This document shows positions 7,762 through 12,971 of a DNA stretch of 64,000 nt, one piece after another. The position numbers were made by a program, and so were the translations under genes. The stretch spans positions 124,001 to 188,000 of the forward strand of contig CAIWCD010000018.1 of the NCBI GenBank assembly GCA_903911145.1. The letters are read 5' to 3'. The notes under the pieces are model-generated. The model ran no database searches. It saw nothing but the letters and a program-made list of their open reading frames with translations, and was not told where the DNA came from. The DNA is from an uncultured delta proteobacterium. Lineage in GTDB: Bacteria; Myxococcota; Myxococcia; Myxococcales; 40CM-4-68-19. Positions within the stretch are counted from its first letter, which is position 1, and every line of letters starts with the position of its first letter.

Positions 7762-10692
7762 CTAAAACGTCGCCGCCAGCGTTATCCGGATCACCCGACC
7801 GTACTGCGTCACCAGATGGTGAGCGGTGGGGAGCTCGGTGCCGCCCGGCAGGTTCACCTGCTCGTTGAGCAGGTTCTGCGCATAGACGCCGTAGCGCAGG
7901 CCCCATTTGCTGTAGACGCCAGCGATGCCCATGTTCCAGCGCAGCGAATCGCCGACGGCGATCGGGGCGATGCTCGGGTTGTCTTCCTGCGTGAGGCGCG
8001 TGCCGTTGTAGATGAGCTCGGTGGCGAACGTCAGCGAGCCGGGGATGATCGGGTACATCAAACGAAGTGCGCCCGCCTGTGAGAGCGAGTTCGGCACCTG
8101 GACTCCCGTCGGGTCGGTTGAGTTTGCGTAGGCGTACCAGAGTTCGAAGAGCGTGCCCGCGCCCGGCTGCCAGCGCGCCTCCGCCTCGATGCCCCAGCTG
8201 ATCGCGGTGCCCGGAAGGTTCTGCAGCTGCGCGCAGTCGGGGCAGGGCGTGTAGTTGTGATCGAGCGTCACGTTGCCGATCAGGTCGGTGCCGCGGCTGT
8301 AGTAGACCGCTGCCATGATCGACACGTCGTCGGTGAGCTGGTGGGTATGCTCAAGCTCCGCCGTCATCACGCGCTCCGGATTGAGCTTCGGTGCGGCTGC
8401 CGTCGACGTGTAGTCGGTGTAGTAGCGCTCGGCGAATCCCGGAGCGCGGAACGCCTGCCCGAAGAGCAGCTTGGTGGTGCCGTCCTCGTAGGGCTGCACG
8501 ATCACGGCGATGCGCGGATTGAAGACCAGCGGCTTGGGCAGATTGGTGTGATCGTCCATGCGCAGCGCGGCGTTGATGCGGAAGCGCCGGTGCAGCGTCA
8601 GTTCGTCTCCGATGTACGCGCTGTAGACGGTCTCGCTGTTGGGGACGCCGCCAGCATTTCCCGCAGCGTTGTCGAAACCGACCGTGCCCGGGACAATCGA
8701 AGTGATGTGGATGCGAAGCCGATCCTGCGCCTCTCCACCGATGAAGAGGTGGTTCTTGAAAAACTCCGGCAGTCGCACGCGCAGCTCTCCCGAGAGCCAA
8801 TCCTCCTGCGTCGAGTCGTATCCCTGTCCGACGAGATAGGCGCTGCTGCCGCTGTATCGATAGGCGTCGTAGGAGATGCGCGCATCGAGGCCCAGCCCCG
8901 AGTCGAAGGTGTGATCGAAGTTCGCCTCGACAAATCCGCGACGGTCGATCGCCTGCGTTCCGGGCGCATTGAAGACCGTCTCGAAAGCCCCGGTGGGGAT
9001 CACCTTCTTGCGGCTCGTGTACGAGGCGATCAGCGAGAAGTCCTGCCAGCGCGCGCGCACGTCGCCGTGGCCGCTCTGCTCGCGGTCGAGATTCTGCGCG
9101 ATCTGCGCCTGTGAACCGCTCGCAGCCGGCGCCAGGTAAGCGGTGTTGCCGTCGCTGTTGGCGGCCGACGCGCGCAGCCAGGCGTAGCCCTGCTCTCCAG
9201 CGCTTGAGAGCGAGAGGTGTCCATACTCTTCGCCGTCGCTCCCCGCCGTCGCGGCTGCGCGGACGTGGTGTCCCTCGGGAGGAACCGAGTGGACCACGTT
9301 GATGACGGCGAAGAAGGCCGCGCTGCCGTAGAGCACCGAACCGGGACCGCGGATGATCTCGATGCGATCCACTTCGGAGAGATCGGCGTCGAACTCTCGT
9401 CCGATGAAGCTCTCGCCGTATGAGACCTCGTTGGTGATGTGCCCGTCGTTGAGCACCAGCACGCGATTGCCGAGCGTGCTCGGCGTGGAGACGCCACGCA
9501 CGCCGAGTGAGCTGTAGGTGTGGTCGTCGGTGACGTAGAGGCCGCGCACCGATCGCAGCGCTTCAGCGAGCGTCGCGTAGCCGAACGCGCGGATCTCGTC
9601 GCCGGAGATGACGGTGATGCTCGCCGGTGCGTCCTCTGCGCGGGTCAGCTTGCGCTCGGCCGCGACCACCTTGGGCTGCGCGTAGCGCAGTCGTGCCTCG
9701 ACGAACGTGCGCTCATCGACTTTCACCTCGACCACGCGAAGCACGGTCTCGCGGCTCTCGTAGCTGATCTCGACCTTGCGCACGCCGGCCGTGACTCCAT
9801 CGATCACGCCGGGCGTGAAGCCGACCTCTTTCCCGTCGACACGGATCAGTGCGCCGTCGAGGTTCGCCTTGACCACCAGTGTCCCCGCTGGCGCCGGAAC
9901 GGGCAGCAGCTTGAACTTCAGTCGTGCGGTGTCCGCCGCCGGGATCTCCACGCTCAGCTGCTGCGTCACGTATCCTGGCGCGCTCACGTAGACGGTGTGA
10001 TGCCCGGGCAGGATGTTCGCGCGCCCGCTCTTCTCGAGGAGCTGCTCGCCATCCGCCTCGTCGACGCGCAACTCGAACTGCGCGGGCTCGCCTTGCACTT
10101 CGAGCGCGCCATAGATGCGCTCGAGCGCGGTTCCCACGCGCGAGGTCTTGCCGGTCACCAGCGTCACCTCGGTGGTTCGCGACTTGTAGCCCGGGGCTTC
10201 GATGATCGCCGTCTCCTTGCCAGGCCTGAGCGCGAGCGTGATCGGCGTCTGTCCTCGCGCGCCGAGATCCTTGCGGTTGATGAAGACGGTCGCACCCGGA
10301 GGATCGGTCTTCACCTCGAGCAGAGCGAGCTGCGGCTTGAGCCGTTCGAGCGCCGTGTCGAGCTCCTTGCGATCGTCGGCCGGCATCGCGTCGTTCTGGA
10401 CCTCCGAGTAGAAGCGCCACGCCTCGTTGAACATCTGCAGCTTCTCGAAGCAGCGCGCGATGTTGAAGATGACGTTCCGGTTGCGCACCAGCCGGTTGGA
10501 CGCGAGGAACTCGCTGAGCGCATCCTCGATGTGTCCGCCGTGATAGAGCGCCGCGCCGCGCCGGAAGCGGAAGTCGGCCTCGTCGGCGGTGTCGTCGGCC
10601 TTGAGCGCGGGCGAGAGCGCCAGCAGCACCGCGAGCAGCGCGACGAAGGCGAAATGCTTTGAGTGCCAATGATTGGAATGCAAACGATTCAT
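7762..10692 (-). CDS. TonB-dependent receptor with N-terminal PEGA repeats
   Basis: A 976-aa outer-membrane receptor with an unusual front. A signal peptide (residues 1-31, cut after ALKA) is followed by a TPR-like helical stretch (about 35-115) and then three PEGA-like beta repeats (about 120-190, 195-265, 280-345; e.g. TDPPGATVFINRKDLG). The plug domain starts near residue 350 (DAPASITVISGDEIR, RIEIIRGPGSVLYGS), and a beta-barrel ends in the terminal aromatic LAATF. PEGA repeats are thought to bind cell-wall or surface components and are rare in TonB receptors. The start codon was chosen for the signal peptide; its n-region is encoded by a copy of the dispersed repeat. Likely downstream partner of the Imm1-like and kinase genes. 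Substrate unknown. Confidence 0.88.
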   Translation of the reverse strand: MNRLHSNHWHSKHFAFVALLAVLLALSPALKADDTADEADFRFRRGAALYHGGHIEDALSEFLASNRLVRNRNVIFNIARCFEKLQMFNEAWRFYSEVQNDAMPADDRKELDTALERLKPQLALLEVKTDPPGATVFINRKDLGARGQTPITLALRPGKETAIIEAPGYKSRTTEVTLVTGKTSRVGTALERIYGALEVQGEPAQFELRVDEADGEQLLEKSGRANILPGHHTVYVSAPGYVTQQLSVEIPAADTARLKFKLLPVPAPAGTLVVKANLDGALIRVDGKEVGFTPGVIDGVTAGVRKVEISYESRETVLRVVEVKVDERTFVEARLRYAQPKVVAAERKLTRAEDAPASITVISGDEIRAFGYATLAEALRSVRGLYVTDDHTYSSLGVRGVSTPSTLGNRVLVLNDGHITNEVSYGESFIGREFDADLSEVDRIEIIRGPGSVLYGSAAFFAVINVVHSVPPEGHHVRAAATAGSDGEEYGHLSLSSAGEQGYAWLRASAANSDGNTAYLAPAASGSQAQIAQNLDREQSGHGDVRARWQDFSLIASYTSRKKVIPTGAFETVFNAPGTQAIDRRGFVEANFDHTFDSGLGLDARISYDAYRYSGSSAYLVGQGYDSTQEDWLSGELRVRLPEFFKNHLFIGGEAQDRLRIHITSIVPGTVGFDNAAGNAGGVPNSETVYSAYIGDELTLHRRFRINAALRMDDHTNLPKPLVFNPRIAVIVQPYEDGTTKLLFGQAFRAPGFAERYYTDYTSTAAAPKLNPERVMTAELEHTHQLTDDVSIMAAVYYSRGTDLIGNVTLDHNYTPCPDCAQLQNLPGTAISWGIEAEARWQPGAGTLFELWYAYANSTDPTGVQVPNSLSQAGALRLMYPIIPGSLTFATELIYNGTRLTQEDNPSIAPIAVGDSLRWNMGIAGVYSKWGLRYGVYAQNLLNEQVNLPGGTELPTAHHLVTQYGRVIRITLAATF
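10655..10689. repeat. Dispersed palindromic repeat, full copy in a signal-peptide region
   Basis: The arms TTTGAGTGCCAAT and ATTGGAATGCAAA flank a single G. The copy covers codons 2-13 of the TonB receptor and encodes NRLHSNHWHSKH before the hydrophobic core of the signal peptide. Confidence 0.85.
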
Positions 10693-10738
10693 GACGTCCG
10701 CTCTCTCTGGGCAACCCGAGGTGATTGCCGACACGCTG

Positions 10739-11149
10739 CTACGACTTTCGCGCGCGTCGCTTCTGCGTCGTGCGTGGCGCAGGCGGAACGGTTGCGTCGT
10801 CGTGCCACGGTATTTGCGGTGGTCTTTCGCCACTGCGCAAGAACTCGTCCGCGGCGCGGAGCGCGACAAAGACAGGAACCGTCCAATCGGAGGGGAATCG
10901 GCAGCTGTCTCCGCGGCCGATGCGGAACTCAAGTTCAACGCCGCTTCCGCGCTTCTGCTCGCTCGCTGGCCTCCGCGACGTAAACCCGGGATCGCCGTGG
11001 TGCCGGACGAAGAAGCAGAGCGCGCGCTCGCCGGACTTGAGCAGCGCCATCGATGCGCCGCCGTTCACCGAGAGCCAGACCTCCGCGAACTCCACCGCGG
11101 CGCAGCCCAGCAAGGCCAGGCGCAGTTCGCGCGGATCGCAGGAGTCCAC
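10739..11149 (-). CDS. Imm1-family immunity-like protein
   Basis: A 136-aa product. The C-terminal block CRFPSDWTVPVFVALRAADE followed by FLRSGERPPQIPWHDD matches the Imm1 signature, in which a (Y/F)P..W.(V/L)P stretch precedes a helix and (G/E)RP...W. GERALCFFVRHHGDPGFTSR fits the central strands. Imm1 proteins neutralise secreted polymorphic toxins, mostly nucleases or deaminases. The GTG start is the first usual start codon, but family-like sequence (RIDLLIDGRAV) continues upstream in frame to about 11180, so translation may begin at a rare codon such as CTG 11200, just after the kinase stop. It lies between kinase and TonB receptor genes on the same strand. No toxin gene is visible. The tail is Arg/Lys-rich. 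Confidence 0.65.
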   Translation of the reverse strand: MDSCDPRELRLALLGCAAVEFAEVWLSVNGGASMALLKSGERALCFFVRHHGDPGFTSRRPASEQKRGSGVELEFRIGRGDSCRFPSDWTVPVFVALRAADEFLRSGERPPQIPWHDDATVPPAPRTTQKRRARKS

Positions 11150-11207
11150 GGCGCGTCCGTCGATCAGCAGATCGATGCGCTCTGGTCTCGTCGAGCCCAG
11201 CCGGCCC

Positions 11208-12971
11208 TCAGCGCTCGCCCTTGATGTCGTGGAGCTGCGGCGGCGCCTCGTGCGGGGGCGCCTCGTGCGGCTGCACCGCCTCTGCGATCTTCTTGAGGCG
11301 CACCGTGATGTCCTGCTTCTCGCTCGTCACCGACACTGTTTGCGTCAGCTCACGATAGCCGCTCAGCGAGAAGGTCAGCTTGTGCTCGCCGCGCGTCGTC
11401 GTCCAGACATACGGCGTCTTGCCGAGCAGCAGCGCGCCGTCGCTGACGTCCGCCTCTTCCGGATCGCTCTTGATCTGAACATTGACCGTCTGCGGCGCGA
11501 GCTTCTCGAGCTTGTAGTTGTGCTGTTGCGCGCCGGCCTTGAGCGGGAGCTGTGCGTCGATCGGCTGGTATCCGTCGAGGGAAAGCTGCACGTGCGCGGT
11601 TGCTTCTTGAAGCGCGAGTGGCTTGCTGGGCGTCGTCCCGACCGGCGCATCATCGACGAGCAGCGTCGCTCCGGGAGGCGTGCTCTGGATGGTCAGGTTG
11701 GTCACTGCGATCGCGGGCGGTGCATTCGGCCTGAGCAGCAGCACCACGGTCGCCACCAGGCCCGCGATGATGACGCCGACCGCGATCCCGAGATTTCGCT
11801 TCGGCTGCGGAAACGGCGCCGCTCCGCTCTCTGTGTTGATCTGCGAGAGGTCGATCTGGCTCTTGCCGTCGGTCGAGTTGGGCCGCTGGTTGACCGTGCC
11901 CCGGCCCGACGGAGTGCGCGCAGTCGCGGGCATGCTCGGGTTGCTGGTTCGCGACGGAGAGCCACCGGGCCCTCCGCGTCCGCCGAGTTGCTCGGGCAGC
12001 ACTTCGAGGCCGGGATCGCCGAGCAGTGGACCGAGCTTCGACTCCTTCTCGAGCCGCTCGCCGTAGACGCCCTTGAGGAACTCGCCGAGGTGCGCGTTCG
12101 ACGCGCTCATGCGTCCGCGAATCAGCCAATCTTCCAGTGCGAGCCGGAACTCCTGCGCCGTCTGGAAGCGCTGGTCGGGATCCTGTGCCAGCGCGTGCAG
12201 CACGATTCCATCGAGGCTCTGCGGCAGATTGGGATTGAGCGACGATGGCGGCGGCACGCGCGTCTGGCGAACGCGTTCTAGCGTCTCGACATCGCTGTCG
12301 GCCTTGAAGAGCCTCCGCCCGGTGAGCAACTCGTGCAGCACGACGCCGAGCGCGAAGATGTCGGTGCGCCCGTCGATCTCCTTGCCCGCGACCTGCTCGG
12401 GACTCATGTAGCTGTACTTGCCCTTGAGCGCGCCGGTGCGCGTGTGCTGCGCGCGGCCCGCCGCCTTGGCGACGCCGAAGTCGATCACCTTCACCCCGCC
12501 CTCGAACGTCACGAGGATGTTCTGCGGAGAGATGTCGCGATGGACGATGTTGTAGGGGCGCCCTTCGCCATCGTGCAGCGCGTGCGCGAACGCGAGTCCT
12601 GCGGCAGCATCGGCGATGATCCGGCAGATGAGCGGTACGCGCAACGGCTTGCCCGCCTGCTCGCACGCGCGAAACAGCCGGCGCAGATCGTCGCCGCGCA
12701 GGTACTCCATCGCGATGTAATAGGTGGACTCGACCTGCTCGAACTCGAAGACCTGGCAGATGTTCGGGTGGATGAGCTGGCCCGTCAGCCGCGCTTCATC
12801 CTTGAACATGGTGATGAACTCCTCATCCTCGCAGAGATGAGGAAGGAGCGTCTTGATCACCAGCAGCTTGGAGAAGCCATCGAGACCGCGCTGGCGGGCA
12901 AGGTAGACCTCGCCCATGCCACCACCGGCGAGACGTTTGAGAAGTTCGTAGCGGCCGAAGGACGGGTGCAT
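11208..12971 (-). CDS. Transmembrane Ser/Thr protein kinase with PEGA domains
   Basis: A 587-aa Hanks-type kinase. The glycine loop is LAGGGMGEVYLAR, followed by the ATP-anchoring Lys40 (LLVIKTLLPHL), the catalytic loop HRDISPQNILV, DFGVAKA and the MSPEQVAG activation segment. A Ser/Pro-rich linker leads to one membrane helix (about 391-412). The extracytoplasmic part has two PEGA repeats (STPPGATLLVDDAPVG and the DPEEADVSDGALLLG copy) and an acidic, His-containing tail. HRDISPQN and PEGA repeats are typical of myxobacterial kinases. The ATG start precedes FGRYELLKRL directly. It heads the presumed kinase-Imm1-TonB operon and is divergent from the DUF4337 gene, with an 81-nt shared promoter gap. 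Confidence 0.92.
   Translation of the reverse strand: MHPSFGRYELLKRLAGGGMGEVYLARQRGLDGFSKLLVIKTLLPHLCEDEEFITMFKDEARLTGQLIHPNICQVFEFEQVESTYYIAMEYLRGDDLRRLFRACEQAGKPLRVPLICRIIADAAAGLAFAHALHDGEGRPYNIVHRDISPQNILVTFEGGVKVIDFGVAKAAGRAQHTRTGALKGKYSYMSPEQVAGKEIDGRTDIFALGVVLHELLTGRRLFKADSDVETLERVRQTRVPPPSSLNPNLPQSLDGIVLHALAQDPDQRFQTAQEFRLALEDWLIRGRMSASNAHLGEFLKGVYGERLEKESKLGPLLGDPGLEVLPEQLGGRGGPGGSPSRTSNPSMPATARTPSGRGTVNQRPNSTDGKSQIDLSQINTESGAAPFPQPKRNLGIAVGVIIAGLVATVVLLLRPNAPPAIAVTNLTIQSTPPGATLLVDDAPVGTTPSKPLALQEATAHVQLSLDGYQPIDAQLPLKAGAQQHNYKLEKLAPQTVNVQIKSDPEEADVSDGALLLGKTPYVWTTTRGEHKLTFSLSGYRELTQTVSVTSEKQDITVRLKKIAEAVQPHEAPPHEAPPQLHDIKGER

Follow-up and report, generated by a model that had tools for sequence, protein, structure and literature searches.

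The window, that is the whole stretch of 64,000 nucleotides analysed here, carries a cluster of three genes on its minus strand (Table 1). A gene for a Ser/Thr kinase with PEGA domains is followed after 58 nt by an Imm1-like gene and, after a further 46 nt, by the gene of a TonB-type outer-membrane receptor. These short gaps, together with the Pfam matches of the products, bear out the original prediction of a strand-wise trio of PEGA kinase, Imm1-like protein and PEGA-TonB receptor.

Table 1. Positions in the window of the three genes and of the parts of their products.
Feature	Position	Strand	Product or residues	Basis
PEGA Ser/Thr kinase gene	12971-11208	minus	587 aa, inner membrane: kinase domain, one TM, two PEGA, C-terminal tail	
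Imm1-like gene	11149-10739	minus	136 aa, GTG start	
TonB-type outer-membrane receptor gene	10692-7762	minus	976 aa: signal peptide, TPR, three PEGA, plug, barrel	
Receptor TPR region	10330..10590	minus	residues 35-121, five helices, predicted periplasmic	AlphaFold2, TPR_2 in homologues, hmmsearch
Receptor PEGA domains, three	9688..10326	minus	residues 123-335	Pfam, AlphaFold2
Receptor plug domain	9289..9672	minus	residues 341-468	PF07715
Receptor beta barrel	7765..9288	minus	residues 469-976	PF00593, Foldseek
Kinase catalytic domain	12153..12950	minus	residues 8-273	PF00069, Foldseek
Kinase transmembrane helix	11733..11789	minus	residues 395-413	hydropathy; AlphaFold2 (helix 393-412)
Kinase PEGA domains, two	11289..11702	minus		Pfam
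Kinase C-terminal tail	11211..11228	minus	DIKGER-COOH, predicted disordered (pLDDT<50)	fits [DGEA]IxxxR motif

In Pfam scans the receptor scores 88 bits for PEGA, in three stretches (PF08308, cut-off 20.8), 66 bits for the plug (PF07715) and 96 bits for the barrel (PF00593), the last two being above cut-off and matched in 22/22 homologues. PEGA was also found in all 22 receptors scanned, and TPR_2 in 19 of them. An AlphaFold2 model built with 22 sequences (mean pLDDT 83) places a helical region in front of beta domains, followed by plug and barrel; both the profile match and the beta-domain folds agree with the earlier assignment of the repeats to PEGA. The TPR region matches the consensus TPR structures 8bu0 and 9qhb (hmmsearch), and is the second most conserved part of the receptor, after the plug. 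Pfam scans gave no match to an STN domain, in whose place the TPR and PEGA domains stand, and no clear TonB box could be assigned. The solved structures nearest to the whole receptor model are CirA, BtuB and FpvA, with PfeA also matched (Foldseek). The receptor may act in uptake, but no evidence points to a substrate. Attempts to name one were abandoned: all NCBIfam profiles score far under their cut-offs (the best, TonB-hemin, 106 against 317), and PDB matches are scattered across CirA, PfeA, YncD and BtuB.

Receptor matches at E<=1e-70 were found in 102 of 179 Myxococcota genomes, so that within this phylum a TPR-PEGA front on a TonB receptor is not the uncommon architecture that had been supposed. 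Named matches include Myxococcus, Corallococcus, Polyangium and Labilithrix, besides uncultured Myxococcota; L090, a locus in the window genome's family (f1), comes from a soil MAG. At the same threshold no match was obtained in the listed f6 members, in G030 (f4), or in G003 and G004, both of family f1. Among the matches listed, full-length relatives are restricted to Myxococcota, those outside the phylum covering only plug and barrel. Naming an M. xanthus orthologue of the window receptor was given up, MXAN_0518 being at most a candidate by its position. MXAN_0518 is a TonB-dependent receptor detected by one peptide in the vegetative outer membrane of M. xanthus (PMC3222651). A literature search for MXAN_0571 gave no paper. 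The original prediction also suggested that the cluster may be an undescribed signalling-uptake unit, and in the open-access literature we found no paper joining PEGA domains with TonB receptors; an earlier description elsewhere is possible.

Two further receptors of this type have other neighbours. The window genome encodes a second TPR-PEGA receptor (L060:7581-11413, G000:C48; 34% identical), whose TPR positions 80-83 differ from those of kinase-linked receptors. A gene for a small PEGA protein lies downstream of it, and it has no kinase neighbour. A second receptor of the same family in G002 (L061:8751-12589, G002:C198; 47% identical) is overlapped over 4 nt by an upstream histidine kinase gene (HisKA, HATPase_c), which replaces the Ser/Thr kinase; this histidine kinase is without evident periplasmic domain.

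The window kinase matches Pkinase (PF00069) at 125 bits and PEGA at 74 bits in two stretches (cut-off 20.8). Its AlphaFold2 model shows the kinase domain with confidence, as well as a transmembrane helix, a well folded second PEGA domain and a disordered end of about 20 residues; the kinase domain is structurally closest to PknB (Foldseek). Against the NCBIfam PASTA-kinase model the protein reaches 270 bits, the cut-off being 450. Among the receptor-linked kinases, the complete PF00069 domain is present in 40/40, and the HRD and DFG catalytic motifs are present and conserved in the alignment. All 38 paired kinases whose topology was checked by hydropathy have a transmembrane segment followed by 85-225 aa. 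PEGA is less regular: it was detected in 30 of the 40 linked kinases and undetected in 10, including all four of family f11, which have only a short periplasmic linker and a tail, the linker being Pro/Lys-rich in L256 and L257. Several Polyangia-type linked kinases are likewise without PEGA and combine a linker with a conserved C-terminal tail.

The original prediction would be supported, in its own terms, by a kinase kept beside the receptor in several genomes. All 28 non-Myxococcaceae Myxococcota genomes in which the DNA before the receptor gene could be read have a Ser/Thr kinase gene there, upstream and in the same orientation (6 from f1, 1 from f2, 5 from f3, 4 from f11 and 12 named Polyangia-type loci); this count includes L079, whose contig holds only the tail-bearing 3' part of the kinase gene. 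The distance between the two genes is -4 to 131 nt, except in the window (515 nt, holding the Imm1-like gene), L059 (260 nt) and L080 (307 nt), and since genes outside the window were called with our own small codon-usage caller, starts and gaps in other genomes may be off by some codons. In 14 Myxococcaceae genomes with both genes on one contig, the same tailed kinase is encoded on the receptor's strand, 38-88 kb upstream. The orthologous kinase adjoins the receptor in G109, lies at about 1 kb in G106 with one gene between, and is separated from it in G105 (L252:8289-9800, G105:C46) by a hybrid histidine kinase/receiver gene. No kinase adjoins the Myxococcaceae receptors of G113, G111, G108, G148 and G152. 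The kinase-receptor pair is well supported as a conserved unit, and is most simply read as ancestral, the two genes having separated within Myxococcaceae. The idea that the unit includes a further conserved gene, downstream of the receptor, was rejected, the neighbours there being variable (GNAT, SDR, ornithine-cyclodeaminase-like; read by eye).

Some loci differ in gene number or neighbours. Two tandem kinases, with tails DIRRSR and EIRRER, precede a single receptor at L080:2583-5690. In G113, two receptors of the same family stand in tandem at L247 (G113:C205), and the genome encodes four receptors and a single tailed kinase (DIKTAR), the latter on a separate contig. At L260:9673-10380 (G111:C23), a gene for an FHA domain, a reader of phospho-Thr, is located 36 nt upstream of the receptor, and the kinase is not adjacent.

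The Imm1-like gene does not belong to this unit, contrary to what had been proposed. Its product matches PF14430 at 35.1 bits (cut-off 22.4) over only the C-terminal 60% of the model, and no toxin gene was recognised near it. The other readable f1 genomes have 0-6 nt between kinase gene and receptor gene. Homologues of Imm1 occur in 2/40 relatives (G003 and G005), in both at another place. The gene is a lineage-specific insertion, seen only in the window genome.

What sets the linked kinases apart from unlinked ones is their very end. Between transmembrane segment and C-terminus the linked kinases are strongly variable, and yet they end alike (GIKAER, GIKTGR, DIKLER, DIRLER, EIKMER, DIAMDR). 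The corresponding motif, [DGEA]-I-x-x-x-R-COOH at the extreme, periplasmic C-terminus, first came to notice in the alignment and was subsequently checked against controls, Polyangia-type loci being read after it had been seen. It is present in 37/40 linked kinases and in 0/75 unlinked ones (Fisher p 5e-27, a value overstated because related sequences were counted as independent, although the contrast is still sharp); even the loose motif IxxxR occurs in only 2/75 of the latter. The controls, all with complete C-termini, were 16 kinases of the window genome, 25 of G012, G013 and G038, 23 of the f11 genomes G041 and G044, and 11 of receptor-lacking genomes, where none bears the motif. Conversely, 34 of the 706 genes called around receptors encode the terminal motif, and 33 of these are receptor-paired kinase genes or fragments. 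Two of the three exceptions end in SPFKTKxxR and belong to a duplicated pair family. The third, adjacent to the L087 receptor, has neither PEGA nor tail, ends in YACPK, and may not be an orthologue, because its domain groups with unlinked kinases. Since PEGA is absent from some linked kinases, weight moves from PEGA to the tail, which by the alignments is the common denominator of these proteins.

The linked kinase domains do not form one clade. In a tree made by a quick method from 39 linked and 62 unlinked domains, a single clade of linked domains was rejected (AU p 4e-42), and on the receptor tree the partners from two Polyangia-type kinase lineages are intermixed. The kinase domain has thus been exchanged and a tail-bearing partner retained. 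Whole pairs have also been duplicated: the second receptors of G101:C21 and G105:C46 have kinases of their own, with a 4-nt gene overlap and the shared changed tail SPFKTKxxR, and the G076:C17 receptor has its own kinase with the tail EIRTDR. We asked as well if tail variants track the tree of the receptors more closely than that of the kinases and dropped the idea, the changes numbering 7 against 7 for the variable position, and 11 against 12 for three positions.

We consider it likely that kinase and receptor work together as a single system for signalling across the envelope, each being one half of it, with the tail docking on the receptor front. The TonB-type barrel would bind an extracellular ligand, which it may import. 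Binding would shift the position or accessibility of the periplasmic TPR-PEGA front, and the partner kinase would sense this change through its periplasmic part, in which a flexible linker leads to the terminal [D/G/E/A]-I-x-x-x-R-COOH. Docking or release of the tail could then alter the kinase, hence the phosphorylation of cytoplasmic targets. Physical contact, docking site, direction of the signal and activation are what we infer here. To judge from the conservation of the tail, it probably docks on the periplasmic front of the receptor; the TPR is a candidate site, as a guess favoured because within the receptor only the plug is more conserved. The groove residues N77, A79, R80 and C81 of the TPR are conserved, but they were discarded as receptor-specific readers of the tail, for non-receptor TPR-PEGA proteins have them too, and the tail-binding site is therefore not singled out. 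Other points that speak against the proposal are the distance between the two genes in most Myxococcaceae, the tailless kinase at L087, the receptors without an adjacent kinase or with a histidine kinase in its stead, and a variable tail position that fits neither tree better than the other. A broader version, in which throughout the phylum the receptor TPR captures the IxxxR-COOH of the kinase and the tail acts as a portable plug wiring different kinases to one receptor family, is put forward tentatively, as a possibility about which we are more doubtful than confident.

Pairing and tail would also fit if the kinase, through its tail and linker, held or regulated the receptor (gating, anchoring or assembly) rather than reading it, and the periplasmic linkers of the f11 kinases L256 and L257, rich in Pro and Lys, recall TonB-like spanning segments. 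A pure anchor, however, would not require the complete kinase domain that 40/40 partners keep, and an exchanged kinase domain has always been replaced by that of another Ser/Thr kinase; we regard such a role as rather unlikely. The exchange of kinases bears also on the possibility that adjacency is only the trace of an old operon without direct functional link, the tail serving another purpose, for instance envelope sorting or proteolytic control. That the genes are apart in most Myxococcaceae, neither having been lost, would agree with this. Nevertheless, across exchanged kinase lineages the tail is confined to receptor-linked kinases, with 0/75 among unlinked ones and 0/11 among the complete kinases of receptor-lacking genomes, and whole pairs duplicate together with altered tails, which makes an old operon improbable as the explanation.

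The original prediction had put forward the shared PEGA domains as the principle of recognition, kinase and receptor binding each other or one common ligand through them. Both window proteins and all 22 scanned receptors do have PEGA. However, the window genome contains 45 PEGA matches, so that sharing the domain is weak evidence, and on the kinases the tail is more regular than PEGA, the 10/40 linked kinases without detectable PEGA including the f11 proteins and several of Polyangia type, which have only linker and tail. As a general principle recognition through PEGA does not hold, and we judge this reading very improbable. Two halves of a signalling system joined by the kinase tail remains the interpretation that we prefer.

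Membrane Ser/Thr kinases are very numerous in myxobacteria, and for most of them the input is not known. With the pair described here, one kinase family gains a concrete candidate for a cell-surface sensor, together with a six-residue handle, and if the proposal is true a kinase could be matched with its receptor from the sequence only. Cultured Myxococcus, Corallococcus and Polyangium have the pair, which makes it practical to test. Like PASTA/PknB-type kinases, the kinase has an N-terminal kinase domain, one transmembrane segment and extracytoplasmic repeats; where they have PASTA, however, it has PEGA (or a linker alone) together with a conserved tail at its end.

The TPR domains of Hop bind the C-terminal EEVD peptides of Hsp70 and Hsp90. 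By analogy, the partner opposite the receptor TPR has an extreme C-terminus that is conserved and follows a flexible linker, and we propose that the TPR may bind this tail. Receptor residue N77, placed by eye, presumably occupies the helix-A position of the Hop-type clamp asparagine; it is also present in non-receptor TPR-PEGA proteins. In contrast to Hop, the receptor TPR has about 2.5 repeats and is periplasmic, and the motif is IxxxR instead of EEVD.

The closest parallel in layout is with TonB-dependent transducers, where contact is made in the periplasm between the N-terminal domain of the receptor and the C-terminal domain of an anti-sigma factor (PMC11637429, PMC7186176). As in FecA-FecR-FecI, FpvA, FoxA-FoxR and PupB-PupR, a TonB-type barrel carries an extra periplasmic N-terminal domain, and its gene goes together with that of a partner in the inner membrane, which would touch this domain with its periplasmic C-terminal part. 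FpvA, itself a transducer, belongs to the best structural matches found for the whole receptor model. Unlike in these systems, the receptor front consists of TPR and three PEGA domains, not STN, and the partner is a Ser/Thr kinase that ends in a short linear motif, where they have an anti-sigma factor whose C-terminal part adopts an STN fold. No anti-sigma or ECF sigma partner was found in the unit among the flanking genes annotated, the conserved partner being the Ser/Thr kinase. The pair thus falls outside the known transducer class, STN and sigma/anti-sigma partners being absent, with a layout that is transducer-like; if the proposed system is real, transducer signalling extends past sigma/anti-sigma pairs.
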